Part shown: positions 3,715 to 39,481 of the stretch, one piece after another
Numbering within the stretch: position 1 is the first letter of the stretch
Layout of the letters: each line of letters begins with the position of its first letter
Assembly (NCBI GenBank): GCA_030592645.1
Contig: JAUVIR010000031.1
Coordinates: 1 to 39,481, forward strand
Source of the DNA: Candidatus Fermentibacterota bacterium
Lineage (GTDB): Bacteria; Fermentibacterota; Fermentibacteria; Fermentibacterales; JCC-6
DNA: 39,481 nt
Reading direction: 5' to 3'
Notes under the pieces: model-generated
What the model saw: only the letters and a program-made list of their open reading frames with translations
What the model was told of the DNA's origin: nothing
Databases searched by the model: none
Translations under genes and position numbers: made by a program

Positions 3715-3718
3715 CGCG

Positions 3719-5509
3719 TTACTCCCGCCATTCTTCCGCAAGTGTAATCATACCCTTTCTTGAACCGGCCATGTATACACCTGAGACCATATTCCTCATC
3801 CCCTCGATCAGCCGGGAAAGATAATCTAAAGAAAATGAGAGAACATCACAGTCATCCAGTTCATGAACCTTTGCAAGTACTTTGTCAGGGATCGATATGC
3901 CGGGTACTTCGGATGCAAGGTATTCGGCGGAATATTTGTTCCGGAAGGGCATCAAAGCCGGCAGAACAGGGTACTCCTCGAGGAGCTCTGCAGATCTTTC
4001 AAGTGTCTCCATGGAAAAGACAGGCTGGGTTATAAAGAATCTACAGCCTGCATCCCATCGTCTTCTAACCTTATCAGCTGAATCCGCGTCTCCGAGAGCT
4101 ACAGCACTTCCGGGGAAGAAACCGGCACCCGTTCCTATTTTTCTGCCGTTGAGATCCTGCCCATCGGCAAGATGCTGCAGCAGCCTGAGGGTCTGTTCGG
4201 TTGTAAGATCGTATACCGCGGTGGACTCCGGATAATCACCCAGGGAGGGAGGATCGCCGGAAATAAGAAAGATACCCTGCAGGCCTGCTCCGGATAGAGC
4301 AAGGAGGTCCGACTGAATCCTTGTCAGGCTTCTGTCACGCAGGGCAAAGTGTACCAGAGGCTCGATACCGAGCTTTTCCCGAAGGTAAAGCCCTGAGATA
4401 CACGGAGACATCCGTACCTTTCCCATGGGAGAATCAGGGATACTTATAGTAACGGGAGCGAACCGCCCCAGTTTTTCCGCCCTTGAGGAGAACAGCGAAA
4501 GGTCGCCGCCCCGGGGAGGCAGCAATTCGAGAATAAGTGCGTCTCCGACTGCGATCTGTGCCGAAAGGGAGGGAGGATCCCAGGATGCTTCGGAATGATG
4601 GATATCATCAGCTTCATCCGGATTAGGGGATGAGAATACTCTGATTTCTGCTCCCTCCGATAGTTTTCGAGAGAGATTGGAGATGAAAGCGGGAGTTGTG
4701 CCGCAGCATCCACCCAGCAGAGAGGTCGCCTTTCCTGTACAGGACAGCATGCATCTGCAGAAATGATCGGGGTTTTCAGGGAATACGAAACGGCCGTTGA
4801 TGTATTTCCCCGTTCCCGCATTTGGTTGAAGAATAACAGGGAAAGGTGATGATGCTGCAAATCTCCTGTGGATATCAAGAAACTGAAGAGGACCGATTCC
4901 GTGATTGGCGCCAAGCATCACAATGTCCGTACCCACGAATTCACTGATGGAATCCTTAATGGAGTAGCCTGAAGGGGTAAGGAGATCGTGACCGTATGTA
5001 AAACTGACGCCGACAGGAATATCACCTGAGTATGATCTTACAATATCGTAAATGATCCTGGCCTGTACCGGATCGATCTGGGTCTCAAGAAGTATGAGAT
5101 CAACACCTCCGCTGAGTAAACCCGCGACCTGAGGAGCGTATGTTTCCTTCAGTCTGTCAGCGTCTCCGGGTTCAGCGTAGAATGAGCGTCCGGACCCTGG
5201 AGGACCGATTGAACCCATTACCGCGCACTGCCCGTTTCGTGCTGCGAGCTTAACCGCCCGATAGTTGATTTCTTCGCATCGGTCTGCGAGTCCGTGCCTG
5301 TCCAGCTTTTCTGTGTTCGCATCGAAAGTATCTGCAGTAAGTATCACAGCGCCTGCTGATGCGTATTCACGATGTATGCTCGCAAGGATCTCTGGAGATC
5401 TGATAACTGCTTCGCATGCAAGATAATTACCCGGATATCCCAGCGAAAACAGATATTCACCGATTGCACCGTCAGCAAGATGGATCTTCCCATCTTCAAG
5501 GAGATTCAT
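3719..5509 (-). CDS. homocysteine S-methyltransferase / methylenetetrahydrofolate reductase fusion (YitJ-type)
   Basis: A 596-residue bifunctional-type protein. Residues 1 to about 290 form a homocysteine S-methyltransferase fold; about 320 to 596 form a MetF-like flavin TIM barrel, with the expected Glu in LELLPP (E328) and the SGDPP loop. MetF reduces methylene-THF to methyl-THF, the methyl donor for the methionine synthase encoded directly downstream, so the two genes make a compact methyl-transfer pair. The zinc site of the N-terminal domain is unusual: GGCCG (Cys268, Cys269) is intact but the first ligand, normally Cys in GxNC, is His203 (GANHG). That domain may bind zinc differently, use another thiol, or be structural only. 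The ATG at 5509 has GGGAGGA just upstream. It lies 61 nt after the epimerase gene in the same minus-strand run. Confidence 0.9.
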   Translation of the reverse strand: MNLLEDGKIHLADGAIGEYLFSLGYPGNYLACEAVIRSPEILASIHREYASAGAVILTADTFDANTEKLDRHGLADRCEEINYRAVKLAARNGQCAVMGSIGPPGSGRSFYAEPGDADRLKETYAPQVAGLLSGGVDLILLETQIDPVQARIIYDIVRSYSGDIPVGVSFTYGHDLLTPSGYSIKDSISEFVGTDIVMLGANHGIGPLQFLDIHRRFAASSPFPVILQPNAGTGKYINGRFVFPENPDHFCRCMLSCTGKATSLLGGCCGTTPAFISNLSRKLSEGAEIRVFSSPNPDEADDIHHSEASWDPPSLSAQIAVGDALILELLPPRGGDLSLFSSRAEKLGRFAPVTISIPDSPMGKVRMSPCISGLYLREKLGIEPLVHFALRDRSLTRIQSDLLALSGAGLQGIFLISGDPPSLGDYPESTAVYDLTTEQTLRLLQHLADGQDLNGRKIGTGAGFFPGSAVALGDADSADKVRRRWDAGCRFFITQPVFSMETLERSAELLEEYPVLPALMPFRNKYSAEYLASEVPGISIPDKVLAKVHELDDCDVLSFSLDYLSRLIEGMRNMVSGVYMAGSRKGMITLAEEWRE

Positions 5510-13958: not shown

Positions 13959-16073
13959 TTGAAGTCGATAGTTTTACTTTTTGTCGTAGTGATTTGCGTT
14001 TCCTATGCAGCTGATGATCTCGTGTATCCGGAAGCCCGTATGTCCGACCAGGTCGATGACTACTTTGGAACACTAGTTCCGGATCCCTACAGGTGGCTCG
14101 AGGATGTGAGTTCCGTTGAAACACTGGCGTGGATAGCTGCCCAGAACGAGTTATGGAACAGCTTCATCGAGGTTATTCCTCGGAGGAACTGGATAAGGGA
14201 GAGGCTTGAGGAGCTCTACGATTACCAGCGATACTCAATGCCCTACAGGAGAGGCGAGCGCTACTTTATACACCTTAACGACGGTTTGCAGGATCACTAC
14301 GTTTTCTGCTCCCGCGAGAGCCTTGAAGGGGAACTGACTGTGCTTATCAACCCAAACGAGTTCCCCGAAGACGAAAGGTTATCTCTTGCAGGAACCAGTG
14401 TGACCGACGACGGAGAGCTGCTTGCCTGGGCAACCAGCGTGAGCGGGTCGGATTGGTCCACCTGGTACGTTATGGACATAGAGACACAAGCTGCCCTGAG
14501 CGATACTATCCGCTGGACAAAGGGCGGTGTCAGCTGGAAGACCGACAACTCGGGTTTTTATTATACGAGGTATGATGAACCCGAGGAGGGGCAGGAATAT
14601 CTTGAACGTAACGAGAACCAGAGGATATTTTTCCACAGACTTGGGACTTTGCAGGAGCAGGACAGTTTAATATACGAGCGACCTGACAAACCCGAGTGGT
14701 TGATTGGAGCTTACGAGACGGACGATGGCAGATATCTGATCATCTATATCTATGATACGAATCTGGCACGGAAAAACGGGATATTTTACATTGATCTTCT
14801 ATCGGGGGACAGCCAGGTGGTGGAACTTCTGGGGGATTTCGATGCGGGATATTCATTGATCGGTAACGTTGGTGAGGAGTTCTACTTCCGTACGGATCTT
14901 GATGCTCCCCATGACAGGATCATCTGTATCGACATCGCCGCGCCTTCCCGCGAGAACTGGATGGAGATCGTACCCGAGTCGGATGAGATACTGGAGAGAG
15001 TTTCTATCCTGAATAACAGCGAGTCGTTAATTCTCCAGTATTCCTGGGATGCCTACAGCCGTGTGTATCTGTACAGCATCCAGGGAGAGTTGCAGAAGGA
15101 GCTTGAGTTTCCCAGCCAGGGAACAATCTGGGGCTTCGGGGGTCTTCAGTCTGACACCGAAACTTTCTACCTGTTCAGTTCCCTCCTGCATCCGGGAGAG
15201 GTATACAGTTACGATTTCGAATCGGGCGAAAGCACATTCCTCTGGGCACCCGAGATAAACGCAGATCTTTCCCGATTCGAGGAAAAACAGGTTTTCTATG
15301 AGAGCCACGATGGAACGATGATCCCGATGTTTCTGGTTTACTCCAGGGACATCGAGCTGGACGGCTCAAACCCTACGCTCCTGACCGGCTACGGAGGGTT
15401 CGGGGCATCTATGAATCCCTGGTTCAGCACCTCCAGACTTGTATGGCTGGAGTTGGGCGGGATATATGCAATTCCCTGTATTCGAGGGGGCGGAGAGTAC
15501 GGTGAGGAGTGGCACCTGGCAGGGATCAAAGAAAATCGCCCGGTTGTGTTCGGTGATTTCATCTGTGCGGCGGAGTACCTGATAAAGGAGGGTTACACCT
15601 CTACACCGAAGCTCGCAATCTCAGGGGGCTCCAACGGAGGAACCCTGGTCGCCGCGTGCCTGAACATGAGGCCGGATCTGTTCGGTGCGGCTGCTCCCGC
15701 CATGGGTGTCATGGATCTGCTTCGCTTTCACCTGTTCACAGTCGGGTGGGCCTGGACCTCCGAATACGGTAACCCCGATGATCCGGAAGAGTTTGAGTTC
15801 CTTCTCGATTACTCTCCATACCACAATATCGAGCCTGGTATCGAGTATCCACCGGTTCTGATATCAACTGCAGATCACGATGATAGAGTGGTTCCCGGGC
15901 ACAGCTTCAAGTATGGGGCAAGATTGCAGGCTGCTCAGGCCGGAGATGCGCCTATCCTGATGTCGATTCATTCCAGGGCCGGACACGGGGGAGCGGTGGG
16001 TCTTTCAGAAGGTCTTGATCGAACGTCCGACAGTTATGCTTTTTTCTGGCAGATACTGAAGATGGATGAGTAG
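13959..16073 (+). CDS. exported prolyl oligopeptidase (S9A)
   Basis: A 704-residue serine peptidase that cleaves short peptides after proline. It begins with a signal peptide (MKSIVLLFVVVICVSYA, cleavage likely before ADD), so it probably works in the periplasm rather than the cytoplasm where many family members sit. DPYRWLED marks the family's N terminus, a seven-bladed propeller follows, and the alpha/beta-hydrolase domain ends the protein. The triad is visible: Ser558 (GGSNGG), Asp641 (DHDDRVVPGH) and His676 (SRAGHGG). Length matches the family. The start is TTG with GGAGGGG at 13948-13954. The gene stands alone. With the nearby C25 peptidase it could complete the breakdown of protein into usable peptides. 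Confidence 0.93.
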   Translation: MKSIVLLFVVVICVSYAADDLVYPEARMSDQVDDYFGTLVPDPYRWLEDVSSVETLAWIAAQNELWNSFIEVIPRRNWIRERLEELYDYQRYSMPYRRGERYFIHLNDGLQDHYVFCSRESLEGELTVLINPNEFPEDERLSLAGTSVTDDGELLAWATSVSGSDWSTWYVMDIETQAALSDTIRWTKGGVSWKTDNSGFYYTRYDEPEEGQEYLERNENQRIFFHRLGTLQEQDSLIYERPDKPEWLIGAYETDDGRYLIIYIYDTNLARKNGIFYIDLLSGDSQVVELLGDFDAGYSLIGNVGEEFYFRTDLDAPHDRIICIDIAAPSRENWMEIVPESDEILERVSILNNSESLILQYSWDAYSRVYLYSIQGELQKELEFPSQGTIWGFGGLQSDTETFYLFSSLLHPGEVYSYDFESGESTFLWAPEINADLSRFEEKQVFYESHDGTMIPMFLVYSRDIELDGSNPTLLTGYGGFGASMNPWFSTSRLVWLELGGIYAIPCIRGGGEYGEEWHLAGIKENRPVVFGDFICAAEYLIKEGYTSTPKLAISGGSNGGTLVAACLNMRPDLFGAAAPAMGVMDLLRFHLFTVGWAWTSEYGNPDDPEEFEFLLDYSPYHNIEPGIEYPPVLISTADHDDRVVPGHSFKYGARLQAAQAGDAPILMSIHSRAGHGGAVGLSEGLDRTSDSYAFFWQILKMDE

Positions 16074-28941: not shown

Positions 28942-30189
28942 ATGATATCCCAACACAATAGTACCCCAGATAACGCTGAATCGAATACTGATCAAACACG
29001 GGTTTTCTGGCTGATCTTCTCTCTTGTGCTGCTCAGCTGGTTATCGATCAAAATCGTGCTGCCTGCGCTGCCCGGTTTCCCGGAGATTTTCGGGTGTTCC
29101 GCAGACGGCGTGAAAATATCCGTTTCTCTTTACCTTCTGTTCTTTGCTTTTTCGCAGCCTTTCTGGGGAGGGGTTGTTCAGAAAAGCGGATACAGAAGGG
29201 CAATTGTTCTTAGTTTCAGCATAGCAATGATCGGGAGCCTGGTCGCAATGTTATCATCAGGTCTGCCGGCATACATAGTTGGAAGAAGTCTTGAAGGCGT
29301 CGGTATAGGAGCAGCTTCTCCAATAGGCCGTACCCTTCTGGTGGATACATTCGACCGAGCCCGTCTGACAGCCAGAATTGGCCTGATCAGCGGTGTTGCA
29401 GCTATCATGCCCGCTCTTGCGCCTATTCTCGGAGTTTACCTGATGCTGCTGTGGGGGTGGCGGGCCATTTTTGGCCTGTTGTTCGTATTGACGCTGGCGT
29501 GGTTCTGTGGTGCGCTGAGATGGCTTCCCCGGTCACTCGTAAATTCATCGGAACAAACTCCGGTAACTCTGAAGAGTCTACTGGAAATTAACCTGACAAT
29601 ACTGAAGAATAAAGGTTTCTGGGGATTTGCCCTTGCGTATGCTTCGATGCTCGGAGGTCTGCTGGGTTACTATTCTGCCATACCATACTGGCTTCATGTA
29701 CAACTTGGAGTTTCTGCCAGTGTATATCCATATCTGGTAGTTCCTACTGTGCTCCTGTATTTAGGAGGTCTGTCTGTTTCAGGTATCCTGGCGGGGAAGC
29801 GAAGCACTGAAGTTTTACTGACCTTAGGTTTGCTGAGTTCGTTTATAGCAGCTTCAGCGGCAATTGGACTTACACTCCTTGGTTTGAGGGGAGTATGGAT
29901 CATAGTCAGTATTATGAGCCTGTACGGCTTTGCGGTAGGGATAGTAACGCCACAGGCAAATGCCGGGGTCCTCTTAAGGTTCAAGCATGCGGCTGCCCCG
30001 GCATCAGCCCTGCTTAGCCTGGTCGTATTTGGTTTTGCTTCACTCACTTCTGCAATAGCTATGCGGCTTTCTGTAAGCGGATTGCTGTGGCAGCTTACCT
30101 TATATATCTGCCTTCTATCAGTAACCGGTTTGCTGGCAGGTTACTTCTGGATATGGCGCCCATCCCGATCCGCAGTGTTACCTGAGTAG
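28942..30189 (+). CDS. MFS exporter, Bcr/CflA multidrug-like
   Basis: A 415-residue major facilitator transporter with about twelve membrane segments starting near residue 22. It matches the Bcr/CflA drug-efflux group in the N-terminal half (VLPALPGFPEIF in the first loop; GGVVQKSGYRR after segment 2, the DRxGRR-type loop; GRSLEGVGIGAASPIGR, motif C region). Substrate cannot be assigned; drugs, solvents or metabolites are typical. The gene is single and converges on the Ycf48-like gene, overlapping it by 12 bases. It has the promoter described at 28905-28934. Its style is close to proteobacterial exporters, so horizontal transfer is possible but not shown. Confidence 0.87.
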   Translation: MISQHNSTPDNAESNTDQTRVFWLIFSLVLLSWLSIKIVLPALPGFPEIFGCSADGVKISVSLYLLFFAFSQPFWGGVVQKSGYRRAIVLSFSIAMIGSLVAMLSSGLPAYIVGRSLEGVGIGAASPIGRTLLVDTFDRARLTARIGLISGVAAIMPALAPILGVYLMLLWGWRAIFGLLFVLTLAWFCGALRWLPRSLVNSSEQTPVTLKSLLEINLTILKNKGFWGFALAYASMLGGLLGYYSAIPYWLHVQLGVSASVYPYLVVPTVLLYLGGLSVSGILAGKRSTEVLLTLGLLSSFIAASAAIGLTLLGLRGVWIIVSIMSLYGFAVGIVTPQANAGVLLRFKHAAAPASALLSLVVFGFASLTSAIAMRLSVSGLLWQLTLYICLLSVTGLLAGYFWIWRPSRSAVLPE

Positions 30190-32361
30190 AATGCACTTAT
30201 CCGTTAATACCGATTCACCTGTCTGTAACCTGTAAAAGTACATTCCAGGAGTCAGATCCTGGCCGGAAAACAGAGTCTGATGCTCACCGGCATCGACCCA
30301 GCCGTTAATCAGGGTTTTCACCAGCCTGCCGCATGTATCGAACAAGTCCAGTCTGACATGGCTTCCATGTGCGATTTCAAATCTGATCACAGCTGAGGAG
30401 CTGAAGGGATTCGGCTCCACTCTGTGAAGCACGACATCTCTCAGAGGGGTGGTTTCTGTCTCGATACCGGTTGGAGGTATATATCTGAGTACAGTTGCAT
30501 GGTATCCGCATGCCCACAGAGTGCTGTCGTTCAGTGCTGCTATGTCCGAAATGCTGTTCTTGTAGAAGGTCCCGCTCCATTCAAGAGTCCAGGTAGCCGC
30601 GCCATTGTCGGTTCTGTATATGAAACCTTTCCCTCCCTGGTTCATCGGATCATAAGCCGCTGCCCAGCCAGTATTGGAGTTGATCATGAGGATTGTCCCC
30701 ACGTACTCGTGCGGAATGGTTCCTGTCTGTTGCCAGGAAGCTCCGCCATCAGTAGTTCTCTGTGTGCTGCCCGAACAACCCGAAGCCCAGCCTTCCTGAT
30801 CGTTGAGGAAGCACATACTGAGAATATGACTGGTAGTCGCGGGTGACTGAGATGTCCAGGTAGCGCCTCCATTGGTGGTGTGGTGGATGAATCCGTTGCC
30901 GCCGGCATATCCGCCTCCAGCCCAGCCTTCACTGGTATCAACGAAATGAACCGCAGCCACATAATTGGTTGTCCCAAGGGATTGAGAGGTCCAGTTTACA
31001 CCGCCGTTGCTGGTAAATCTGAGAGCGCCGTTGCTCCCGAATGCCCAGCCTGAATCTGCGGATGCGAAAAAGATACCACCTATCCATGGCCCTGAGGTGA
31101 TGTAATGCTGCGTCCAGTTTACACCGCCGTCAGTGGTTCTCCATACCCTGGAACTGTTACCCTCCCATAGCATCCATCCGGTATCAGTGTCAGTGAAGAA
31201 GCATTGCGCTCCCCCTGGAGAATCCGCATCGGGTTCCCACGTTGTTCCGCCGTCACCGGATATGATCGAATAACCATCGGTCCCTGCGTTGGATCCGGAA
31301 GTTATACGGCCGGTTAGATCATCAACCCAGTTTACTGATTTCCAGCATGGTGATCTGTGCTGCCATTCCCAGGTAGTTCCATTGTCAGGGCTGTTGAGTA
31401 TCTGGCTGTAATTTGAACCGGTCCAGATATCATTATTGATGTACTGAATGGCGTATGTGTAATCATTCAGAGGAAGCACGGTCGAAGACCAGCTATCACC
31501 GCCGTCACTGGTGACCATGACTTTCACCTGGGACGGGGACAGAATCGCAACACCAACAACCGCTACGTTGTTCTCATCCCTGGCAGCCACTCTGTGGTAA
31601 TGAAGATTGCTGGTGGTCTGAACAACCCAGTTATCACCGCCATCTTCGGTGTAGAGTATCGGGCCGCCGGCATTAAGACAGGTTGTTGCAGCCCAGCCTA
31701 TATCAGGTGTTACGAAGTCAATACCGCAGATACCCGCATTTGCTGCTGAAAAAGGAACGGTCTGGCTGACCCATGTAACTCCACCGTCGTCTGTATGATA
31801 GATCTGTGGAGCAAGAGTACTGGTTCTGCCACCTACCCAGCCATTCATTGAATCGGTGAACCAGATGTCTTCGCACGAATAAGCGTTTGATCCGAAGCTC
31901 TGGTTTTCCCATGTAACTCCGCCGTCGGCTGTATGCAGGACAAGGTAGGAAGATCCATCGGACCATCCTCCACAGATCCAGCCTTCAAGATGATTGATGA
32001 AATGTATGCTCACGAGTACTCTTGATGTACCGCTCGATTGGCTGCTCCAGCTGTCACCTCCATCAGTGGTTGCAAATATTTTTCCACCTGAGCCCGCCGC
32101 CCACCCGGAATCGGGCGATGTGAAATGGATCGCTCTGAGCGATGCTGAAACCGTCAGCTCCTCCCAGTTAGCTCCCCCGTCTGCCGTTCTGAAAACCGTT
32201 GTGAGGTTTTCCTCCACTGTGCCGAGAGTCCAGCAATGCTCGCCATCGGGCAGAGTACACATATCCATAAGCGTTACGCTTGAGCTCTGCTGCATGAGCT
32301 CCCAGGAGCCCTGCGCAAAGCATGGCACTGAGATAAGACTTATCAGAATGACTATTTTCAT
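30178..32361 (-). CDS. secreted Ycf48/BNR-like propeller with sorting tail
   Basis: A 727-residue exported protein. After the signal peptide (MKIVILISLISVPCFAQG, approximately) there are about thirteen repeats of 40-50 residues, each centred on a T-x-DGG-x-x-W motif (TTDGGVNWTQ, HHTTNGGATW, RTTDGGASW, TDDGGVTW). This is the Ycf48/BNR-repeat propeller; plant and cyanobacterial Ycf48 assists photosystem II assembly, but in non-phototrophs the fold is a general binding scaffold. A sorting tail follows from about 645 (EPNPFSSS, GRLVKT, PGMYFY, ending CILLR). GGAGGTG precedes the ATG. It starts 40 nt after the winged-helix regulator gene, likely in the same transcript. Confidence 0.85.
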   Translation of the reverse strand: MKIVILISLISVPCFAQGSWELMQQSSSVTLMDMCTLPDGEHCWTLGTVEENLTTVFRTADGGANWEELTVSASLRAIHFTSPDSGWAAGSGGKIFATTDGGDSWSSQSSGTSRVLVSIHFINHLEGWICGGWSDGSSYLVLHTADGGVTWENQSFGSNAYSCEDIWFTDSMNGWVGGRTSTLAPQIYHTDDGGVTWVSQTVPFSAANAGICGIDFVTPDIGWAATTCLNAGGPILYTEDGGDNWVVQTTSNLHYHRVAARDENNVAVVGVAILSPSQVKVMVTSDGGDSWSSTVLPLNDYTYAIQYINNDIWTGSNYSQILNSPDNGTTWEWQHRSPCWKSVNWVDDLTGRITSGSNAGTDGYSIISGDGGTTWEPDADSPGGAQCFFTDTDTGWMLWEGNSSRVWRTTDGGVNWTQHYITSGPWIGGIFFASADSGWAFGSNGALRFTSNGGVNWTSQSLGTTNYVAAVHFVDTSEGWAGGGYAGGNGFIHHTTNGGATWTSQSPATTSHILSMCFLNDQEGWASGCSGSTQRTTDGGASWQQTGTIPHEYVGTILMINSNTGWAAAYDPMNQGGKGFIYRTDNGAATWTLEWSGTFYKNSISDIAALNDSTLWACGYHATVLRYIPPTGIETETTPLRDVVLHRVEPNPFSSSAVIRFEIAHGSHVRLDLFDTCGRLVKTLINGWVDAGEHQTLFSGQDLTPGMYFYRLQTGESVLTDKCILLR

Positions 32362-32401: not shown

Positions 32402-33847
32402 TCACAGGTGATACCTGCCATTGTTTAGTATGATTTTTCCGCTATTTGTTACTTTTGGTTTCTCAGCAATGATATCCCAATTGGTATATCCCGAAATATC
32501 TCCTCCGACGGCAAGATTGCTCCCGAAAGTAATATGGAAACTCCCGAATACTTTGGTATCGAGCCGGGGGATGTATGACATCGATACGGCAGCAGGATTA
32601 AGCCCGAAACCGACCTGACTTATCGTCCTTCCCTCGCGGTCCGTTTTTCTGAAATACTCTTCCAGCCGGTTATCACCTTGTTCTATCCTGCAGTCTGTAA
32701 CTATACCGTTATCCACGCTCAGCTCAATTCCTCTGGCTTCCGCATAGTCCAGTTCGCAGTGATCCATATAGATGGTCCCGCAAAGACCGGAGAGGTGGGG
32801 CACAAAGGATATTTCGCCGGAGGGAAGAAGAAAGAGATTCTTGCCGCGTGATGAAGAGTAAGGTCCGGCATCGATGAAATACCTGGTTTGGTCTATGCTC
32901 ACATGCAGCATATTGTCCCGGCCGGTATGAATATCAAAATTCTCAAACTCACGGATTTTTCCAGCAAGCTTACTTACTTTTCTGAATTCATCCCCGTTTA
33001 CAGAAGCAGCTTTCCAGAATGTAGTCAGATTTTCAAGTATATCAGGATTCGTGTAGAATTCTTCCTCGAATCTCGGTATCGAAATAAGAATAGACCGCGT
33101 ATCTGACGGTTCTGTAATACCTCTCAATGCCCGTCTTCGCTCCCGCGTAACGAAATCAAGTCTTTCCTTCGGAATTTCTGCAATATCCGGAATTTCCGAA
33201 CGCTTGAGATGTATCCATGCGTCCGCCCAGTCTACCGTATCTGCAAGCCCGTCGAAGTAGACAATTATCTCTTTCTCAGGCAGGTTCATCAGCATATCTT
33301 TCTCGCTGGCGGGATCTTTGATTATTGTTCTGTAATGAACCCCCGATCGACGCAGATGTGAGACGATCTTTTTGTAGATACCCATGTTCTGTTCCTCGAA
33401 GTTGACAACAACGTTTTCCCCCGGCCTGAGCTTCAGGTAGTCGAAAAGAACAACTCTTGCAAATTTATCAAGATCAAGGTTAAGATCACGTTTGAGGAAA
33501 TAATCGAGGTATGAATTACTGAGCCTGCTGCTTATTCCGTTCTCCGGCTCATGCATCTCATCAAGACCGGCTGAAATGAGAAAGTCCTGAGCTATGGCAC
33601 AGTAGAACTTCTCACGATTTCCACGTACAGGTTTGCGATCCACTTGTCTGGTAAGTCCGGATTTTTCAAGTTTCTTAAGATAGTATATCACGCGGGGTGT
33701 CGTGACACCCAGCATTCCAGCAAGCTGCACACCGGATAACGGCTGTTTCTGCAATTCTTTCAGTATACGAAACGCGTACTTGTTGCTGAGTAATTGAAGT
33801 TTGCTGAAGTCCGATACTATTTCCAGTCCTTTCAATAGCTGCTCCAT
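32402..33847 (-). CDS. winged-helix regulator fused to a degenerate M29-aminopeptidase-like sensor domain
   Basis: A 481-residue protein. Residues 1 to about 90 are an ArsR-type winged helix (LQLLSNKYAFRILKEL, LAGMLGVTTPRVIYYLKKLEKSGL). From about 120 the protein looks like an M29 thermophilic aminopeptidase (LRPGENVVV; LLPSGEISFVPH; FGLNPAAVS; FGSFHITFGSN). Compared with the known metal ligands of M29 enzymes, E345 and H438 and D458 remain, but the second Glu position is Gln411 and the His of HxD is Asn456 (NWD). It is therefore probably not an active peptidase; the pocket may bind a peptide or metal and report to the DNA-binding domain. It has a strong promoter and a perfect operator-like inverted repeat over its own start. 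Confidence 0.82.
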   Translation of the reverse strand: MEQLLKGLEIVSDFSKLQLLSNKYAFRILKELQKQPLSGVQLAGMLGVTTPRVIYYLKKLEKSGLTRQVDRKPVRGNREKFYCAIAQDFLISAGLDEMHEPENGISSRLSNSYLDYFLKRDLNLDLDKFARVVLFDYLKLRPGENVVVNFEEQNMGIYKKIVSHLRRSGVHYRTIIKDPASEKDMLMNLPEKEIIVYFDGLADTVDWADAWIHLKRSEIPDIAEIPKERLDFVTRERRRALRGITEPSDTRSILISIPRFEEEFYTNPDILENLTTFWKAASVNGDEFRKVSKLAGKIREFENFDIHTGRDNMLHVSIDQTRYFIDAGPYSSSRGKNLFLLPSGEISFVPHLSGLCGTIYMDHCELDYAEARGIELSVDNGIVTDCRIEQGDNRLEEYFRKTDREGRTISQVGFGLNPAAVSMSYIPRLDTKVFGSFHITFGSNLAVGGDISGYTNWDIIAEKPKVTNSGKIILNNGRYHL

Positions 33848-33875
33848 TCTAATTAAAATTTATTTTAATTAGAAT
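33846..33875. promoter_or_regulatory. perfect 30-bp inverted repeat, probable operator of the winged-helix regulator
   Basis: Arms ATTCTAATTAAAAT (33846-33859) and ATTTTAATTAGAAT (33862-33875) are exact reverse complements, separated by TT. The repeat overlaps the regulator's -10 box at one end and its ATG at the other. This fits a dimeric winged-helix protein that blocks its own transcription. The arms are long for such a site, and its AT richness stands out from the surrounding DNA. Confidence 0.7.
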
Positions 33876-33899
33876 AGCGCCTGCCTAAATCCATGTCAA
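33871..33899 (-). promoter_or_regulatory. sigma70-type promoter of the winged-helix regulator
   Basis: On the minus strand TTGACA (33899-33894) is followed after exactly 17 nt by TATTCT (33876-33871). Transcription would begin near 33864, leaving about 17 nt of leader with no Shine-Dalgarno sequence before the ATG at 33847. The -10 box shares five bases with the inverted repeat. Confidence 0.65.
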
Positions 33900-34167: not shown

Positions 34168-34908
34168 ATGGGCAGGATCACAAGAAAGATAATCAGGATA
34201 GATGAGGAAAAATGTGACGGCTGCGGGATCTGCGCCGATGCATGTCACGAGGGAGCAATTCAGATAATCGACGGTAAGGCAAAGCTTGTTAAGGAATCTT
34301 ACTGTGATGGTCTCGGAGACTGCATCGGTCCATGTCCTCAGGATGCTATAACCATCGAAGAGCGGTACGCTGACGAGTACGATGAGGATGCAGTACAGAA
34401 ACACCTGGAAGAGCAGGACTCACCCTCCGAGCCTGCGAAACCCGTAGTATGCGCGTGCCCGGGGTCAGCGGTAAGAGAACTTTCGCATCCTGCTGAGCCC
34501 ATGGAGACAGCTTCATCTGAAAATGTGACCTCCAGCCTGTCGACATGGCCTGTACAGATCACGCTTGTTCCTCCCAACGCGCCATTCCTGAACGATTCTG
34601 ATCTTCTTATCGCAGCTGACTGCGTTCCCTTTGCATTTCCCGACTTCCACAACCGTTTCATTAAGGGAAGAGTTGCCCTTGTCGGGTGTCCCAAACTCGA
34701 TGATCCCGGATACTACGCAGATAAGTTCACAGAGATCTTCAAAGTGAACGAGATCAGGTCAATAACTGTCGTTTACATGGAAGTCCCCTGCTGCGGCGGT
34801 CTTGTCCAGCTGATTCACAAAGCGCTGATCCAGTCAGGTAAACAGATTCCCCTGACCTTCCTGAAGATCGGTATCAAAGGTGATATTCTGGACGAAATGA
34901 ACCTCTAG
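34168..34908 (+). CDS. 4Fe-4S ferredoxin-type protein with Cys-rich C-terminal domain
   Basis: A 246-residue cytoplasmic redox protein. The first cluster motif is complete (Cys16, 19, 22, 26 in CDGCGICADAC). The second (CDGLGDCIGPCP) has Cys46, 52 and 56 with Leu at the position of the missing Cys, so it may hold a three-iron cluster or be lost; this is how I remember the family. A linker with a CACPGS motif joins a C-terminal domain with ADCVPFAF, VGCPKLDD and MEVPCCGGL. The family is common in anaerobes; partner and reaction are unknown. GGGAGAG precedes the ATG. The gene is divergent from the winged-helix regulator, so that regulator may also act here, though its operator is over 200 nt away from this promoter. 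Confidence 0.86.
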   Translation: MGRITRKIIRIDEEKCDGCGICADACHEGAIQIIDGKAKLVKESYCDGLGDCIGPCPQDAITIEERYADEYDEDAVQKHLEEQDSPSEPAKPVVCACPGSAVRELSHPAEPMETASSENVTSSLSTWPVQITLVPPNAPFLNDSDLLIAADCVPFAFPDFHNRFIKGRVALVGCPKLDDPGYYADKFTEIFKVNEIRSITVVYMEVPCCGGLVQLIHKALIQSGKQIPLTFLKIGIKGDILDEMNL

Positions 34909-34977
34909 TAGATCTGTAAATGGATATATGATAAGAGTGTACGCAATATCATGGAACTATTTCCTAGTAAAATGGTA

Positions 34978-34983
34978 TATAAT
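34978..34983 (+). promoter_or_regulatory. candidate -10 box for the metal efflux operon
   Basis: TATAAT at 34978-34983 lies 51 nt before the GTG start of the outer-membrane channel gene. No good -35 box sits 16-18 nt upstream, so the promoter may need an activator, or use the overlapping extended form TGGTATATA (34973-34981). No clear metal-regulator inverted repeat is visible in the 126-nt gap. Confidence 0.35.
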
Positions 34984-35034
34984 TATCGGTCTCGTTCTGA
35001 AATGATGGAAAGGTAGAGTATTCAGGGAGGAACC

Positions 35035-36303
35035 GTGCGAACAACTGTCATGACGATCCTGCTTCTTTGGGCTGCTGCCGCAGCAGGCGCAGACAGTCTT
35101 GAAGCCAGCCCGGGTGTGTTGTGGGAATACGCTCTTGCCCATTCAGATATGATGCATTCGATGGATAGCCTCATCGTCAGTTCTGATATGATCCTGGATG
35201 CTTCCGGCCGCCTGCCCGATCCATCTGCAAGGTTTGGATGGTCACCTCTTCCGCTTGAGACGAGGAACGGACCTGCAGTTTTCTCGATCACATTCATGCA
35301 GAGAATTCCATGGCCCGGTTTTCTTTCAAAGGAGATATCTCTCGCCTCGACAGGTGTTGATCTGGCATCCGGGAATCGGGATCTGGCCGCACTGGAGCTT
35401 CGATCCTCAATTACTGAACTCTGGTCAGAGATGTACCTGGCGCGAAGTGGAATTGAATTTTCCGGAGGAGAATCTGCAAGGCTTCAGGTTCTTCTTGAAA
35501 CAGCATCTGCTAAATACGAAACAGGGGCCGTAAGCCTTTCAGACCTGCTTCGGCTGGAGAACAGGATAGCGCTACTGGAAGCGGATCAATACCGGATGGA
35601 ATTGAACCTGGAAGCGCTCAATGCCGAGATGAACAGTCTTCTAGGTCGGCCGATTGATGATGGTTTCCGCTGGGACGGACTCCCTCCCGGTGTTGAGAAT
35701 TTCAGGCAGCTCGGGTATTCCAGAATCGATGTAAGCGATTTCCCGCTTGCACGGAAAAGCATAATTGAAGTTGAGAGAGCCAGGTCCGCAGAAGAGCTCA
35801 GCGCAGAGCGCAGACGCCCTTCATTTGAGGTTGGAGCAACCTGGTCGATCATTGGCAATCCCTCAATTGAGATGGGGTCGGTCGAAGAGGGGGGCGATGG
35901 GCTGATGATCTTCGCGGGGCTAAGTCTTCCGCTTGGCTACAGCGGAAACAGCTACAGGTACAGAGCAGCTCGATCCTCTGCAGAGGCAGCATTTCTGATG
36001 CATTCGCAGAAACTTGCCGCCCTTACCTCCCGAAGAGCGAACCTGACGGCAGCAATTGAAGGACTGATGAATTTCCATTCTTCGTACGAGACGGATATCG
36101 TGCCTAACCTTGAAGTAATCCTTTCACTTACGGAAAGAGAATGGATGACAGGTACACGGAGTTTGATGGATGTGATCGAAGTGATAAGTGAACTCAGAGC
36201 AGCTCATCTTGAAATGGTGGGTGCCTACTCACAGATCGTTGTGTCAACAGCAAAACTGAAAGAATTGACTGGAAGCATAACAGAGAGAGGTGAATTTCTA
36301 TGA
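35035..36303 (+). CDS. TolC/CusC-type outer-membrane efflux protein
   Basis: A 422-residue outer-membrane channel for tripartite export. A signal peptide (to about residue 18, ending AAAAAGA) is followed by two homologous halves of long amphipathic helices. Features include LEASPGVLWEYAL, the short strand-turn region around GWSPLP, VSLSDLLRLENR in the first helical hairpin, the repeat start VGATWS and TGTRSLMDVIE in the second. There is no lipobox Cys, so it is not a lipoprotein like E. coli CusC. The start is GTG with GGGAGG at 35025-35030. It opens the metal-efflux operon, and its TGA overlaps the ATG of the next gene (ATGA). Confidence 0.85.
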   Translation: MRTTVMTILLLWAAAAAGADSLEASPGVLWEYALAHSDMMHSMDSLIVSSDMILDASGRLPDPSARFGWSPLPLETRNGPAVFSITFMQRIPWPGFLSKEISLASTGVDLASGNRDLAALELRSSITELWSEMYLARSGIEFSGGESARLQVLLETASAKYETGAVSLSDLLRLENRIALLEADQYRMELNLEALNAEMNSLLGRPIDDGFRWDGLPPGVENFRQLGYSRIDVSDFPLARKSIIEVERARSAEELSAERRRPSFEVGATWSIIGNPSIEMGSVEEGGDGLMIFAGLSLPLGYSGNSYRYRAARSSAEAAFLMHSQKLAALTSRRANLTAAIEGLMNFHSSYETDIVPNLEVILSLTEREWMTGTRSLMDVIEVISELRAAHLEMVGAYSQIVVSTAKLKELTGSITERGEFL

Positions 36304-36737
36304 AAAAGAAAGCAACAGGGTTCGGAACCGCTATCCTCATCGGGATTATCGCGGCGGTTTTCATCCGTGGTGTTGCAGGAAACGAAACATGCGGGGCAGA
36401 AGAAACTGATACCTCGCAGGCTGCAGGGGCTGTTATTACAGCGGAGAGTCCGGAAGAAGCAGATGAGAGTGGAGTGATAGACCTGAACAATACGTTCTGC
36501 CCTGTAATGGGCGGGGAAGTGATGGAAGGTCAGTATGTCGACTGGGAGGGATTCCGCGTGCATTTCTGTTGCGGCGGATGCGATGTTCTGTTCCTCGCTG
36601 AACCGGAGAAGTATCTGCCCGTTCTGGCAGAGGAGGCTGCTGTTGCCGAATTGCTTGATATTGAATGTGCCAGCTGTTACCCCGAATCCTGCAGCTGCGA
36701 ACAGCCGCAATCTTCTGGCTGCGGCTCCTGTCACTAA
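36300..36737 (+). CDS. membrane-anchored YHS/TRASH-type metal-binding protein with Cys-rich tail
   Basis: A 145-residue protein with one N-terminal membrane segment (about 8-26) and an exported domain. FCPVMGGEVMEG followed by a Tyr/Trp strand and VHFCCGGC is the YHS/TRASH heavy-metal pattern. The protein ends with a run of Cys in short spacing (ECASCYPESC, then CGSCH), which would add further thiol ligands. It probably captures a soft metal, such as copper, silver or mercury, in the periplasm and hands it to the adaptor. It is translated by overlap with the TolC-type gene and followed by the CusB-like gene after 28 nt, a position taken by CusF-type chaperones in Cus operons, though it is unrelated to CusF. 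Confidence 0.8.
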   Translation: MKKKATGFGTAILIGIIAAVFIRGVAGNETCGAEETDTSQAAGAVITAESPEEADESGVIDLNNTFCPVMGGEVMEGQYVDWEGFRVHFCCGGCDVLFLAEPEKYLPVLAEEAAVAELLDIECASCYPESCSCEQPQSSGCGSCH

Positions 36738-36765
36738 CCGCTAAGTAATAGAAGGCGGGTAAGAT

Positions 36766-38061
36766 GTGCTGAAGATCGATGGCAGCAGGAGGACGTTTGG
36801 GCTTCTGATCACAGGAGTGATCGTCGGGTTGATCTTCGGATTCGGACTGCCATGGGGCTGGCTGTTCCAGAGTTCTGCTGAGGGGCATGGTCCCAATGGA
36901 AGTTCAGACCTGTCCGAAAGCTGGGCATGCCCGATGTTATGCGTTGTTCTTGACCATCCCGGCACCTGTCCCGTCTGTGGTATGGAACTTGAAGCATTCA
37001 TCAGCACCGGAGATGAAGTTGTTCTGTCAAGACACGATCAGGCTATGCTCGATCTGACTGTAGAAGAAGCCGCGGTCCGGGACCTCAACACCAGATTCAC
37101 AGCTCCTGGACTCATAAAATTCGATGGTGCGGGGCTCTACTCCGTAACAGCCTGGACCGGAGGCAGGATAGAACACCTGTATGTGGACTACCAGGGAGAG
37201 CATCTTGCAAGTGGTGAAGCAATCGCAGGTATCTACTCTCCGGAACTCTACGCTGCCAAACAGGAGCTTCTGGTGCTTTCTCAGGCAGGAAGCACGCTCG
37301 AAGATTACGGTGCAACCCTTGCTGCTGAAAAACTTCGGCTTTTAGGAGCATCGGAATATGTGATCAACCAGATAATCGAGAGAGGCGACATCAGCACACT
37401 TTCTACTGTTATCTCACCTGTTTCAGGAACTGTTACCGCAATTCACGTTCGGGAGGGAGAGCATGTGTCCACAGGGCAGGTCCTTCTGGAGCTGGCGGAC
37501 ATTTCAACCGTCTGGCTTACGGTCTACCTGACAGAGGATCAGTCCGGTCTGGTCTATAAAGGTCAGGAAGTGGAATTCAGGATCGATGCCCTGCCTGACA
37601 AAGTATTTTCTGCTGTGATCGATGCAGTTGATCCTTTTCTGGATCAGCCGGGTGGCGCCTTTGAAGCAAGGATCATTCTCGAAAACTCCTCGGGGGAATT
37701 CCTTCGGGGGCAGTCTGCAGCCGCAGAATTCATCAACAGAGAAGAACCCGGCGCTGTTCTCTCTGTTCCCAGAGGAAGTGTCCTTTCGCTTGGCTCACGA
37801 TCAGTTGTCTATGTGATGACAGGACCAACCGTTTTTTCAACTGGCGACAACGGATCTCTCCGCACCGAGGAGGCACGGTTCGAACCCATGCTAGTCACAG
37901 TAGGCCCCCTTGCTGCAGACAGTACGGGGGAAGTCTTCTATCCCATCTATGCCGGTCTTTCTGAGGGAGACGTTGTCGCTTTGAAAGGTGCTTTTCTGAT
38001 CGATTCACAGGCTGAACTGCTCGGGCTCCCGTCTCTATTCAATGCGGAAACGGCAGAGTAG
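36766..38061 (+). CDS. CusB-like periplasmic adaptor of heavy-metal RND efflux
   Basis: A 431-residue membrane-fusion protein. A membrane segment (about 10-30) is followed by a heavy-metal-binding domain (WACPM, then HPGTCPVCGMEL; about 51-72), then the barrel-sandwich, hairpin and beta-barrel domains (TAWTGGRIEHL, AIYSPELYAAKQELL region, VREGEHVSTGQVLLELADISTVW, cut here to VREGEHVSTG). It links the pump to the outer-membrane channel and may pass metal to the pump. The start is GTG at 36766 with GAAGG upstream; an overlapping ATG at 36764 leads to an immediate stop. It ends nine bases before the pump gene. Metal specificity, likely Cu(I)/Ag(I), is inferred from the metal-binding domain. Confidence 0.9.
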   Translation: MLKIDGSRRTFGLLITGVIVGLIFGFGLPWGWLFQSSAEGHGPNGSSDLSESWACPMLCVVLDHPGTCPVCGMELEAFISTGDEVVLSRHDQAMLDLTVEEAAVRDLNTRFTAPGLIKFDGAGLYSVTAWTGGRIEHLYVDYQGEHLASGEAIAGIYSPELYAAKQELLVLSQAGSTLEDYGATLAAEKLRLLGASEYVINQIIERGDISTLSTVISPVSGTVTAIHVREGEHVSTGQVLLELADISTVWLTVYLTEDQSGLVYKGQEVEFRIDALPDKVFSAVIDAVDPFLDQPGGAFEARIILENSSGEFLRGQSAAAEFINREEPGAVLSVPRGSVLSLGSRSVVYVMTGPTVFSTGDNGSLRTEEARFEPMLVTVGPLAADSTGEVFYPIYAGLSEGDVVALKGAFLIDSQAELLGLPSLFNAETAE

Positions 38062-38070
38062 TGGAATGCG

Positions 38071-39481
38071 ATGATAAGAAAAATTGTCGAATTCTGCCTG
38101 AAGAATCCTCCCGCTGTTATCATGATCGCCGCATTGGCGGGCGGCACCGGCATCTGGGCACTGAAAACAACTCCAGTGGACGCCTTTCCGGACATATCAG
38201 AGAATCAGGTTATCGTTTCAACGCAATGGGCGGGGAGAAGCCCCGATGATGTTCAGGATCAGATAACCTACCCGCTCTCAGTCGAACTGCAGGGGATTCC
38301 CGGTGTAAAACAGGTAAGAGGCATGTCCGGTTTTGGGTTCAGCAGGATCTATATAGTTTTCGAAGACAATATAGATTTCTACTGGGCAAGAACCCGTGTT
38401 CTCGAGCGTCTGGGCGGTCTTGGAGATGTCCTCCCGTACGATGCCCTGCCCCAGCTGGGTCCGGATGCCACACCTCTAGGACAGATATACTGGTATACGG
38501 TTGAAGGTCCGCAGGATCTCGGGACGCTTCGGACATTGCAGGATTACACCATCAGATACGCGCTTCAGAGTATCCCCGGTGTTTCCGAAGTCTCAAGCAT
38601 CGGCGGCTTTGTAATGGAGTATCAGGTTGATGTCGACCCGAATCTGCTCTTCAACTACGGATTGGATATTCAGCAGGTGAACGAGGCGATCTCCAGCTCG
38701 AACATCGATGTAGGTGCCAGAACGGTCGAGGCATCAGGGATGGAGTATATCGTCAGAGGTACAGGATTCCTGGAGGGGATAGAGGACCTTGAGCAGGTTC
38801 TCGTCGCCAGTAGAGACGGGGTTCCTGTATTGCTTGGCGACATCTCCTCAATATCCACCGGCCCGGGGTTCCGGAGGGGAGCGCTTGCCGACCACAACGG
38901 TGAGATCGCGGGGGGGATTGTCGTCATGAGAAAGGATGCCAACCCTGTGCGCGTCATCGATGCGGTGGAGGCAAGACTGGCCGAAATCGCCCCGGCTCTT
39001 CCTGAAGGTGTAACCATTTCTCCCTATTACGATCGAAGAGAACTCGTCCTTGAGACAGTCGAAACTCTCTCGGGCGTGATCGCAATGGAAATGCTGATCA
39101 CACTGATAGTTATCCTGATCTTCCTGGTTCATCTGAGAAGTTCTATTATTGTGACCGCAACGCTGCCTTACGCTGTTCTGCTCTGTTTCGCGGCGATGAA
39201 GGTTCTTGGTATCTCGGCAAATATTATGAGTTTTGCGGGGATAGCGATAGCCATAGGTACATTGGTGGATATGGGAATAGTTGTCACGGAGAATATCCAC
39301 CTCTCTCTTGCGCGCGATAATTTTAAAAATACTCTTGTCAGCATACGTGACGCTGTTGCGGAGGTAGCTCCCGCGATACTGACATCGCTGGGGACCACCG
39401 TAATAAGTTTCGTGCCGGTTTTCTTCCTCTCAGGGCAAAGCGGCAGACTCTTCATCCCTCTTGCCTGGACCAAAACCCTTG
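38071..39481 (+). CDS. CusA/CzcA-type heavy-metal RND pump (partial)
   Basis: The first 470 codons of a proton-driven heavy-metal pump, cut by the window end; complete members are about 1030-1050 residues. It opens with MIRKIVEFCLKNPP and one membrane segment, then the periplasmic porter region with DAFPDISENQV, the PLSVELQGIPGV stretch and SSIGGF, and a DRRELVLETVETLSG helix into membrane segments. The fourth segment carries the family's conserved Asp in IAIGTLVDMGIVVTENI, which takes part in proton relay. The ATG at 38071 follows the adaptor stop by nine bases, with only a weak GTGGA ribosome binding site, so coupling to the upstream gene is likely. Confidence 0.92.
   Translation, partial: MIRKIVEFCLKNPPAVIMIAALAGGTGIWALKTTPVDAFPDISENQVIVSTQWAGRSPDDVQDQITYPLSVELQGIPGVKQVRGMSGFGFSRIYIVFEDNIDFYWARTRVLERLGGLGDVLPYDALPQLGPDATPLGQIYWYTVEGPQDLGTLRTLQDYTIRYALQSIPGVSEVSSIGGFVMEYQVDVDPNLLFNYGLDIQQVNEAISSSNIDVGARTVEASGMEYIVRGTGFLEGIEDLEQVLVASRDGVPVLLGDISSISTGPGFRRGALADHNGEIAGGIVVMRKDANPVRVIDAVEARLAEIAPALPEGVTISPYYDRRELVLETVETLSGVIAMEMLITLIVILIFLVHLRSSIIVTATLPYAVLLCFAAMKVLGISANIMSFAGIAIAIGTLVDMGIVVTENIHLSLARDNFKNTLVSIRDAVAEVAPAILTSLGTTVISFVPVFFLSGQSGRLFIPLAWTKTL

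Follow-up and report, generated by a model that had tools for sequence, protein, structure and literature searches.

We analysed positions 1 to 39,481 of contig JAUVIR010000031.1 (assembly GCA_030592645.1) from a Candidatus Fermentibacterota bacterium, a stretch of 39,481 nucleotides (nt) that we call the window. It carries on its minus strand a gene for a protein in which an ArsR-type winged helix-turn-helix (wHTH) DNA-binding domain is joined to an M29 aminopeptidase fold. Four features of this protein were read from sequence: the fusion itself, the loss of two metal ligands across its family, the position of its gene before a gene for a secreted cargo protein, and a conserved site at its promoter. 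We lean towards the view that it acts as a one-component repressor which regulates itself along with the cargo gene in one operon, and that the pocket of the former peptidase is its ligand sensor. The different parts of this model have different strength. We hold with high confidence, from the sequence comparisons given below, that the protein is a predicted DNA-binding autoregulator of the cargo operon; the M29-derived domain probably contains a ligand-sensing pocket; and a peptide-like ligand is a tentative proposal.

The gene, its ribosome-binding site and its two domains were placed as follows. Residue numbers here and below are counted from an ATG at 33847, and the TTG start at 33835 would lower each of them by 4.
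32402..33835, minus strand: regulator gene, 477 amino acids (aa) from its probable TTG start (orthologue comparison and GGAG site)
33842..33845, minus strand: GGAG ribosome-binding site, 6 nt before TTG 33835 (sequence)
33575..33790, minus strand: winged-helix DNA-binding domain, residues about 20-91 (Pfam HTH_24/HTH_5; PDB 1uly by sequence, 2cwe/1uly by fold)
32405..33475, minus strand: M29-fold domain without an intact metal site, residues 125-481 (Pfam PF02073; Foldseek 2ayi, E 7e-19)

The window protein matched Pfam HTH_24 at residues 22-65 (28.9 bits, cut-off 21.9), HTH_5 at residues 27-65 (26.5 bits, cut-off 22) and Peptidase_M29 (PF02073) at residues 125-445 (50.7 bits, cut-off 27). Its AlphaFold model, built from 21 aligned homologues, had a predicted local distance difference test score (pLDDT) of 75 and a predicted template modelling score (pTM) of 0.64. 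Foldseek matched this model in the PDB to AmpT (2ayi, E 7e-19), PepS, NicX and AmpS, and further to CgnE (6zsu, E 1.6e-7) and the ArsR-like PH1932 (2cwe, E 2.8e-6). Pfam, AlphaFold and Foldseek agreed with an earlier reading of the DNA letters (the sequence-only reading), which had described a winged helix joined to a domain with M29 motifs. A chance resemblance to M29 was rejected, since the pattern across the family and both alignment methods pointed the same way as the fold and Pfam. An ArsR metalloregulator was also rejected, since the ArsR/SmtB model NF033788 (NCBIfam) gave the window protein 20.9 bits, below its cut-off of 55. The protein combines a DNA-binding and a sensor-type domain in one chain, as one-component regulators do, and the second domain would do the sensing. 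The AlphaFold model of a Cloacimonadota relative was weak (pLDDT 65, pTM 0.46), and its top Foldseek matches were NicX and M29 structures with E from 8e-14 to 2e-10 and TM scores of 0.35-0.48.

The open reading frame (ORF) at 32402-33847 on the minus strand, 481 aa counted from ATG 33847, was found as the sequence-only reading had given it, and only its start was revised. Translation probably begins at TTG 33835, because a GGAG lies 6 nt upstream and because this start gives the Lys-Gly-Leu beginning common to most orthologues, in which it sits 10-11 nt behind an inverted repeat. ATG 33847 begins on the last base of that conserved repeat and so overlaps it.

We then compared the metal ligands. 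In part of PMC7023490, E319 of AmpS is described as bridging both metals, with E253 and H348 holding one and H381 and D383 the other. The AmpS equivalents below were obtained from that source and by aligning the ordinary M29 enzyme of the window's own genome to AmpS (offset 3), with N456 = H381 and D458 = D383 taken from alignment columns rather than from a residue-by-residue count.
32813..32815, minus strand: E345, ligand kept (AmpS E253; MAFFT, family alignment, hhalign)
32615..32617, minus strand: Q411, replaces the bridging Glu (AmpS E319; MAFFT, family alignment, hhalign)
32534..32536, minus strand: H438, ligand kept (AmpS H348; MAFFT, family alignment, hhalign)
32480..32482, minus strand: N456, replaces the His of HxD (AmpS H381; MAFFT, family alignment)
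32474..32476, minus strand: D458, ligand kept (AmpS D383; MAFFT, family alignment)

In a MAFFT alignment with 15 stand-alone M29-like proteins, these five residues fell on the E-E-H-H-D columns, where they had been assigned before. Alignment by hhalign to the own-genome M29 enzyme gave the same columns for E345, Q411 and H438 and ended at residue 445, before N456. The window protein reads E-Q-H-N-D where an M29 enzyme has all five ligands, and the alignment placed no intact ligand at positions 2 and 4. L445 stands in place of the catalytic Tyr of EEHYHD, a residue that 13 of the 23 stand-alone relatives lack too. The term "de-metallated" used in the sequence-only reading may be too strong for the window protein, in which E345 and H438, the two terminal ligands of one AmpS metal, remain. 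The same genome encodes one ordinary M29 enzyme (418 aa, contig C14, locus L001; E ~1e-77 to AmpS, AmpT and PepS) and a paralogue of the window protein on contig C60 (66% identical). A short wHTH remnant, a 56-aa frame that resembles regulator residues 3-42, lies at G000:C32:44590-44712.

A search of 146 relatives showed full-length homologues confined to the window organism's own family (Candidatus Fermentibacteria, Aegiribacteria and Sabulitectum). Three further full-length homologues, in Cloacimonadota, came from named records. Profile searches showed wHTH-M29 fusions in three phyla. In the window's phylum, Fermentibacterota, 14 of 42 genomes had near-full-length fusions (22 matches), as did 59 of 124 Cloacimonadota genomes (61 matches), and a match starting at the wHTH was found in 16 of 20 genomes of a third phylum, two of them partial. 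No match with both domains was found outside the three phyla in three overlapping samples of 385, 386 and 386 genomes, with at most 4 candidates scored per genome. Stand-alone M29-like proteins were common in these samples, and about 10 other genomes of one of them gave wHTH-only matches in short frames.

We aligned 66 fusions with 23 stand-alone M29-like proteins. The fusions comprised all 22 near-full-length Fermentibacterota matches, 32 of the 61 from Cloacimonadota and those of 12 of the 16 third-phylum genomes; three Cloacimonadota loci duplicating L075-L077 and two partial Fermentibacterota copies (L055 and L056) were left out. One third-phylum fusion is truncated before four ligand columns, and the other 65 were scorable. 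The bridging Glu was kept in 0/65 scorable fusions (replaced by Q, M, L, S, T, F or G) and the His of HxD likewise in 0/65 (replaced by T, N, G, P, E, I or S), while E-E-H-H-D was complete in 23/23 stand-alone proteins. The two losses noticed in the window alone were shared by every other scorable fusion aligned. A sequencing error and a loss confined to this copy were both rejected because all aligned homologues with those columns lose positions 2 and 4. E345 was kept in 17/22 Fermentibacterota and 21/32 Cloacimonadota fusions and was Lys in 12/12 from the third phylum; H438 was kept in 17/22 Fermentibacterota fusions and in none elsewhere (0/32 Cloacimonadota, 0/11 third phylum); and D458 was kept in 18/22 Fermentibacterota fusions and in no other. 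Position 4 was Glu in 22/32 Cloacimonadota fusions, and K-G-x-S-G was fixed in all 11 readable third-phylum rows. We read this pattern as a stepwise loss in which some replacements appear to have become fixed within lineages.

Two further observations concern this family. Ligand loss has gone further in five of the six deeper Fermentibacterota paralogues (L036-L041), which read C-M-S, G-Q-N or S-M-S at their first three ligand positions; some of the six loci adjoin cargo genes on the opposite strand. In Sabulitectum, L056 (G029:C115:7324-7900) is a regulator remnant in which residues 19-78 and 345-479 are encoded by two adjoining pieces, one of them with a stop in it, and everything between is lost.

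The ligand pattern bears on two other explanations. The protein could be a working aminopeptidase that also binds DNA, as E. coli PepA (XerA/CarP) does, and its M29 fold and the three of five ligands kept would suit such an enzyme. With the bridging Glu and one second-metal ligand missing in all scorable fusions, and a separate complete M29 enzyme in the genome, we consider this extremely improbable. Alternatively, the protein could be a metal or redox sensor in which one metal, held by E345 and H438 and possibly also by Q411, controls DNA binding. The Glu and the His are both kept at these two positions in 17/22 Fermentibacterota fusions, and the opposite strand carries close by what is likely an operon for metal efflux (HlyD_D23/HMBD, ACR_tran, OEP). 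However, none of the Cloacimonadota or third-phylum fusions kept His438, yet they share the gene arrangement, and the NF033788 score was below its cut-off; a metal sensor is thus improbable.

The promoter region of the window gene contains three elements.
33894..33899, minus strand: -35 box TTGACA with a 17-nt spacer (sequence; TTGAC with a 17-nt spacer in 14 repeat-bearing genes)
33871..33876, minus strand: -10 box TATTCT, whose last four bases are the first four of the candidate operator (sequence; conserved in the clade)
33847..33874, minus strand: candidate operator, a 28-bp inverted repeat TTCTAATTAAAATAAATTTTAATTAGAA with 12-bp perfect arms (upstream alignment, motif counts)

The upstream regions of 16 genes of the window's clade (L054 included) were aligned. 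The clade showed a sigma-70-like promoter with the repeat TTCTAWTTCA-N8-TGAAWTAGAA over the -10 box. The repeat was present with at most 4 mismatches in 14 of the 16 genes, and all 14 had TTGAC 17 nt before the -10 box. Its distance to the start codon was 10-11 nt in 11 of the 14, 14 nt in L054 and 23 nt in two. A putative two-fold site thus lies at the promoter in these 14 clade genes, as expected of a regulated promoter. Searched for throughout the genome with up to 2 mismatches allowed, the site turned up in two places only, ahead of the window gene and ahead of its paralogue, both times without mismatch. The two arms also paired better than re-dealt arms did: 124 of 140 pairs were matched, against a mean of 117.6 when arms were re-dealt among genes, and 21 of 2000 trials reached 124. 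Two-sided changes were found at two pairs, from C-G to A-T (window) and from A-T to C-G (two Sabulitectum genes) or T-A (L042).

Outside the window's clade the upstream regions were less uniform. A scan for the best repeat gave p < 0.05 in 0/6 deeper Fermentibacterota paralogues, 8/32 Cloacimonadota genes (several different repeats) and 1/12 third-phylum genes, and an inverted repeat general to all three phyla was rejected on these counts. In Cloacimonadota another repeat, GT[CA]AA-N7-TTGAC, whose right half can be a -35 box, was present in 14/32 upstream regions compared with 0.16% of mononucleotide shuffles, a count that is no independent test because the motif was spotted by eye before counting.

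The partner gene follows the regulator gene after a gap of 41 nt, and its ATG lies behind its own GGAGG site.
30178..32361, minus strand: partner gene, secreted 727-aa BNR/YCF48-repeat protein with a type IX secretion system (T9SS) type A sorting domain (TIGR04183)

The sorting domain scored 25.5 bits with TIGR04183 (cut-off 23) and, with Pfam PF18962 (cut-off 27), 22.9 bits in one scan and 27.8 bits for the same stretch in another. TIGR04183 was passed by all nine downstream proteins scanned and PF18962 by four of the nine, the window gene not among these. We built a sorting-domain profile from these nine proteins, all passing TIGR04183, and this profile is therefore not independent of them. 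A complete downstream ORF was available in 49 of the 66 fusion loci, and three loci had no downstream ORF. A T9SS cargo gene on the same strand within 210 nt downstream was found in 38/49 loci, with a median gap of 18 nt; by group the counts were 12/18 in Fermentibacterota, 21/23 in Cloacimonadota and 5/8 in the third phylum. Where the downstream ORF was cut by the contig end, it was homologous to these cargos in 12 of 14 loci. The cargos were diverse and included BNR and FG-GAP propellers, cleaved-adhesin proteins, a gingipain-type C25 peptidase and MAM-domain proteins. Four genomes had 67-108 sorting-domain matches each, which by estimate is a few per cent of their genes.

A same-strand cargo gene also stood directly before the regulator in 15/56 loci, nine of them in the smaller Cloacimonadota clade and four elsewhere in Cloacimonadota, the others being L044 and L049. 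In the Cloacimonadota clade of L076, L077 and L159 the regulator usually lies between two cargo genes; some 15 nt ahead of the regulator start these three loci have the long inverted repeat ATTGCGGGG...CCCCGCAAT, perhaps a terminator or attenuator.

We compared segments up to 4 residues from the old ligands, the ligands themselves excluded, with the rest of the C-terminal half. Entropy near the ligands against the rest was 0.94/1.39, 1.04/1.55, 0.48/0.89 and 0.37/0.67 bits in the four lineages, which fits a kept pocket or, less favourably to a sensor, could be structural and reflect core motifs of the fold. In two proteins of Thermoleophilia (L078:822-1841 and L079:2224-3333) the same type of winged helix is coupled to a solute-binding domain (PBP_like), and therefore this head combines with more than one sensor. 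The conserved segments in four lineages and the Thermoleophilia proteins make the sensor role proposed in the sequence-only reading plausible, as a conditional part of the model. Its other half, the re-use of a peptidase fold in a DNA-binding regulator, is well supported by the loss of two ligands throughout the scorable fusions and by the two-fold site at the gene's own promoter.

The M29-derived domain might instead be a dimerisation scaffold only, binding no ligand, in a constitutive autorepressor that fixes the cargo level. The catalytic residues have been lost, with dissimilar residues (Lys, Gly, Leu) in their place in some lineages; an autorepressor that sets a fixed level can do without a ligand; and part of PMC10070186 reports an extensive dimer interface in M29 enzymes. 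Against a mere scaffold, the segments lining the pocket are better conserved than the remaining C-terminal half in all four lineages, several replacements are fixed within a lineage (K-G-x-S-G in the third phylum), and the same type of wHTH occurs with the ligand-binding PBP_like domain. We judge the scaffold unlikely, though it deserves serious attention.

Several results weigh against a self-regulating repressor of the cargo operon with a sensor in its old active site. The window protein keeps both terminal ligands of the first metal, a point that the sequence-only reading had not mentioned, and because E345 and H438 remain a single weak metal may still bind in the window clade. The repeat was absent upstream of L044 and L049, both close behind another same-strand cargo gene, and in the six deeper Fermentibacterota paralogues, where same-strand downstream cargo was found in 0 of the 5 with a complete downstream gene. 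The best-repeat scan found no common upstream repeat in the 12 third-phylum genes. When 120 nt of each gene were compared singly with shuffles, no more than 8 of the 16 clade genes had the repeat at p < 0.05, and two more were significant with other repeats; the case for the site therefore rests on its position and on the comparison across genes. The pattern used in the genome-wide search had been written to fit the two sites that it found, and the reversed pattern was found in one place. As for the cargo, 11/49 loci had no same-strand cargo gene within 210 nt: six in Fermentibacterota (five deeper paralogues and L044), L077 and L159 in Cloacimonadota, and three in the third phylum. L077 was scored as a miss with a subtilase carrying the same sorting domain 442 nt downstream. 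The sorting domain was also found, at a laxer cut-off, in 47/213 other genes of the same loci, and the loci are related rather than independent, so that binomial significance of the cargo link is overstated.

These misses, and the abundance of cargo genes near these loci, would suit a passive link, with the regulator acting elsewhere or on the cargo by positional accident. However, the downstream position held a cargo in 38/49 loci compared with 47/213 for other genes of the same loci, in three phyla, and the cargos belong to unlike families (BNR, FG-GAP, C25 peptidase, adhesin). A passive link is for these reasons very improbable.

In the model of a self-regulating repressor, we infer that a dimer would bind the 28-bp inverted repeat, covering the -10 box of its own promoter. 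The bound dimer would repress, rather than activate, a two-gene operon in which the regulator and the T9SS-secreted surface protein are presumed to be co-transcribed. A signal molecule, for which a peptide, an amino acid or a similar amide compound is the likeliest candidate, would occupy the old M29 pocket, alter the affinity for DNA and release repression. Cross-regulation may occur between two paralogues of one genome that carry the same site. Hints at a peptide or amino-acid ligand come from the ancestry of the fold, the peptidase cargos of some Cloacimonadota loci, the polypeptide use proposed for Cloacimonadota of one lake in part of PMC8542988, and CgnE.

The descent of the fusions was examined with a tree of 78 rows, built on the M29 part after removing the five ligand columns; the truncated fusion and sequences over 90% identical were omitted. 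The tree showed one Fermentibacterota clade (100/99) and one third-phylum clade (100/100), and the Cloacimonadota fusions were split into two clades. In the best tree the third-phylum fusions were placed among stand-alone proteins (96/86). A single clade for all fusions was not rejected by the approximately unbiased test (p-AU 0.224), and the deep branches were long. The fusion may thus have arisen once or twice.

The neighbourhood of the regulator had been called peptidase-rich. It contains C25 and S9 peptidases, whereas the partner gene itself encodes a secreted BNR-repeat protein, and it is only mildly peptidase-rich. The C25 gene (22887-28214, minus strand) encodes a 1775-aa gingipain-type Peptidase_C25 protein with FG-GAP and fn3 domains and is separated from the regulator by three genes; the S9 gene (13959-16073, plus strand) encodes a prolyl oligopeptidase with both domains. 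On the divergent strand, positions 34168-39480 (plus) carry a gene for a ferredoxin-like protein followed by OEP, YHS, HlyD_D23 (with a heavy-metal-binding domain) and ACR_tran genes, likely a metal efflux operon. At 1366-5509 (minus strand) two adjoining genes encode homocysteine S-methyltransferase domains, accompanied by B12 and pterin domains in one gene and fused to MTHFR in the other.

Compared with known proteins, the window protein shares its C-terminal fold and the loop motifs round the metal site with the M29 aminopeptidases AmpT (2ayi), AmpS (1zjc) and PepS (4icq). Unlike these enzymes it lacks the bridging Glu, the HxD His and the catalytic Tyr and has an N-terminal winged helix. 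NicX (2,5-dihydroxypyridine dioxygenase, 7cn3) has the same fold and another function. In this iron enzyme the two His and the Asp at these positions are among the metal ligands, and the window protein carries Asn in one of the three places. PH1932 and ArsR-type winged helices belong to the same DNA-binding class, with a sensor that is absent or of another fold, and the Thermoleophilia wHTH-PBP_like proteins have a related head and a sensor domain of a fold other than M29. Several regulators are built on former enzymes, namely the ROK repressors (sugar kinases), B. subtilis PurR (PRTase fold), GntR/UTRA and MocR. They share with the window protein the principle of an enzyme fold as ligand sensor behind a DNA-binding domain. 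We know of no enzyme-derived regulator that uses the M29 peptidase fold, and we found no report of an M29-fold sensor in a gene regulator in the open-licence literature of PubMed Central (PMC). Enzyme-derived sensors are already known, and the M29 fold in that role appears new, as we found none. To our knowledge no dedicated one-component regulators for T9SS cargo have been described, and a narrow search of the same open-licence literature brought none to notice.

The M29 fold was likewise diverted from peptidase work in CgnE and CgnB of crocagin biosynthesis (6zsu). According to part of PMC10070186, CgnE has lost two metal ligands, is metal-free in its structure and binds the crocagin precursor peptide. 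CgnE and CgnB differ from the window protein in having no DNA-binding domain and in acting in peptide modification. CgnE is a distant match by fold only (Foldseek E 1.6e-7), and its lost ligands need not equal the two lost in the window protein. A phmmer search of the PDB gave 4 matches up to E 1, with neither CgnE or CgnB nor AmpT or AmpS among them.

The family described here occurs in three phyla, usually beside a secreted T9SS cargo, and offers a short DNA site that can be tested and a pocket that could be screened for its ligand. With CgnE already known, it is one more M29 fold that has outlived its chemistry. The dead M29 pocket might, more speculatively, be a receptor for extracellular peptides, either produced by the activity of the cargo or derived from the cargo protein, whose binding relieves repression, giving a feedback between T9SS and transcription in three phyla with each regulator serving its adjoining cargo. 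We regard this version as doubtful; if true, it would mean that type IX secretion and the transcription of its cargo are coupled by a built-in feedback.

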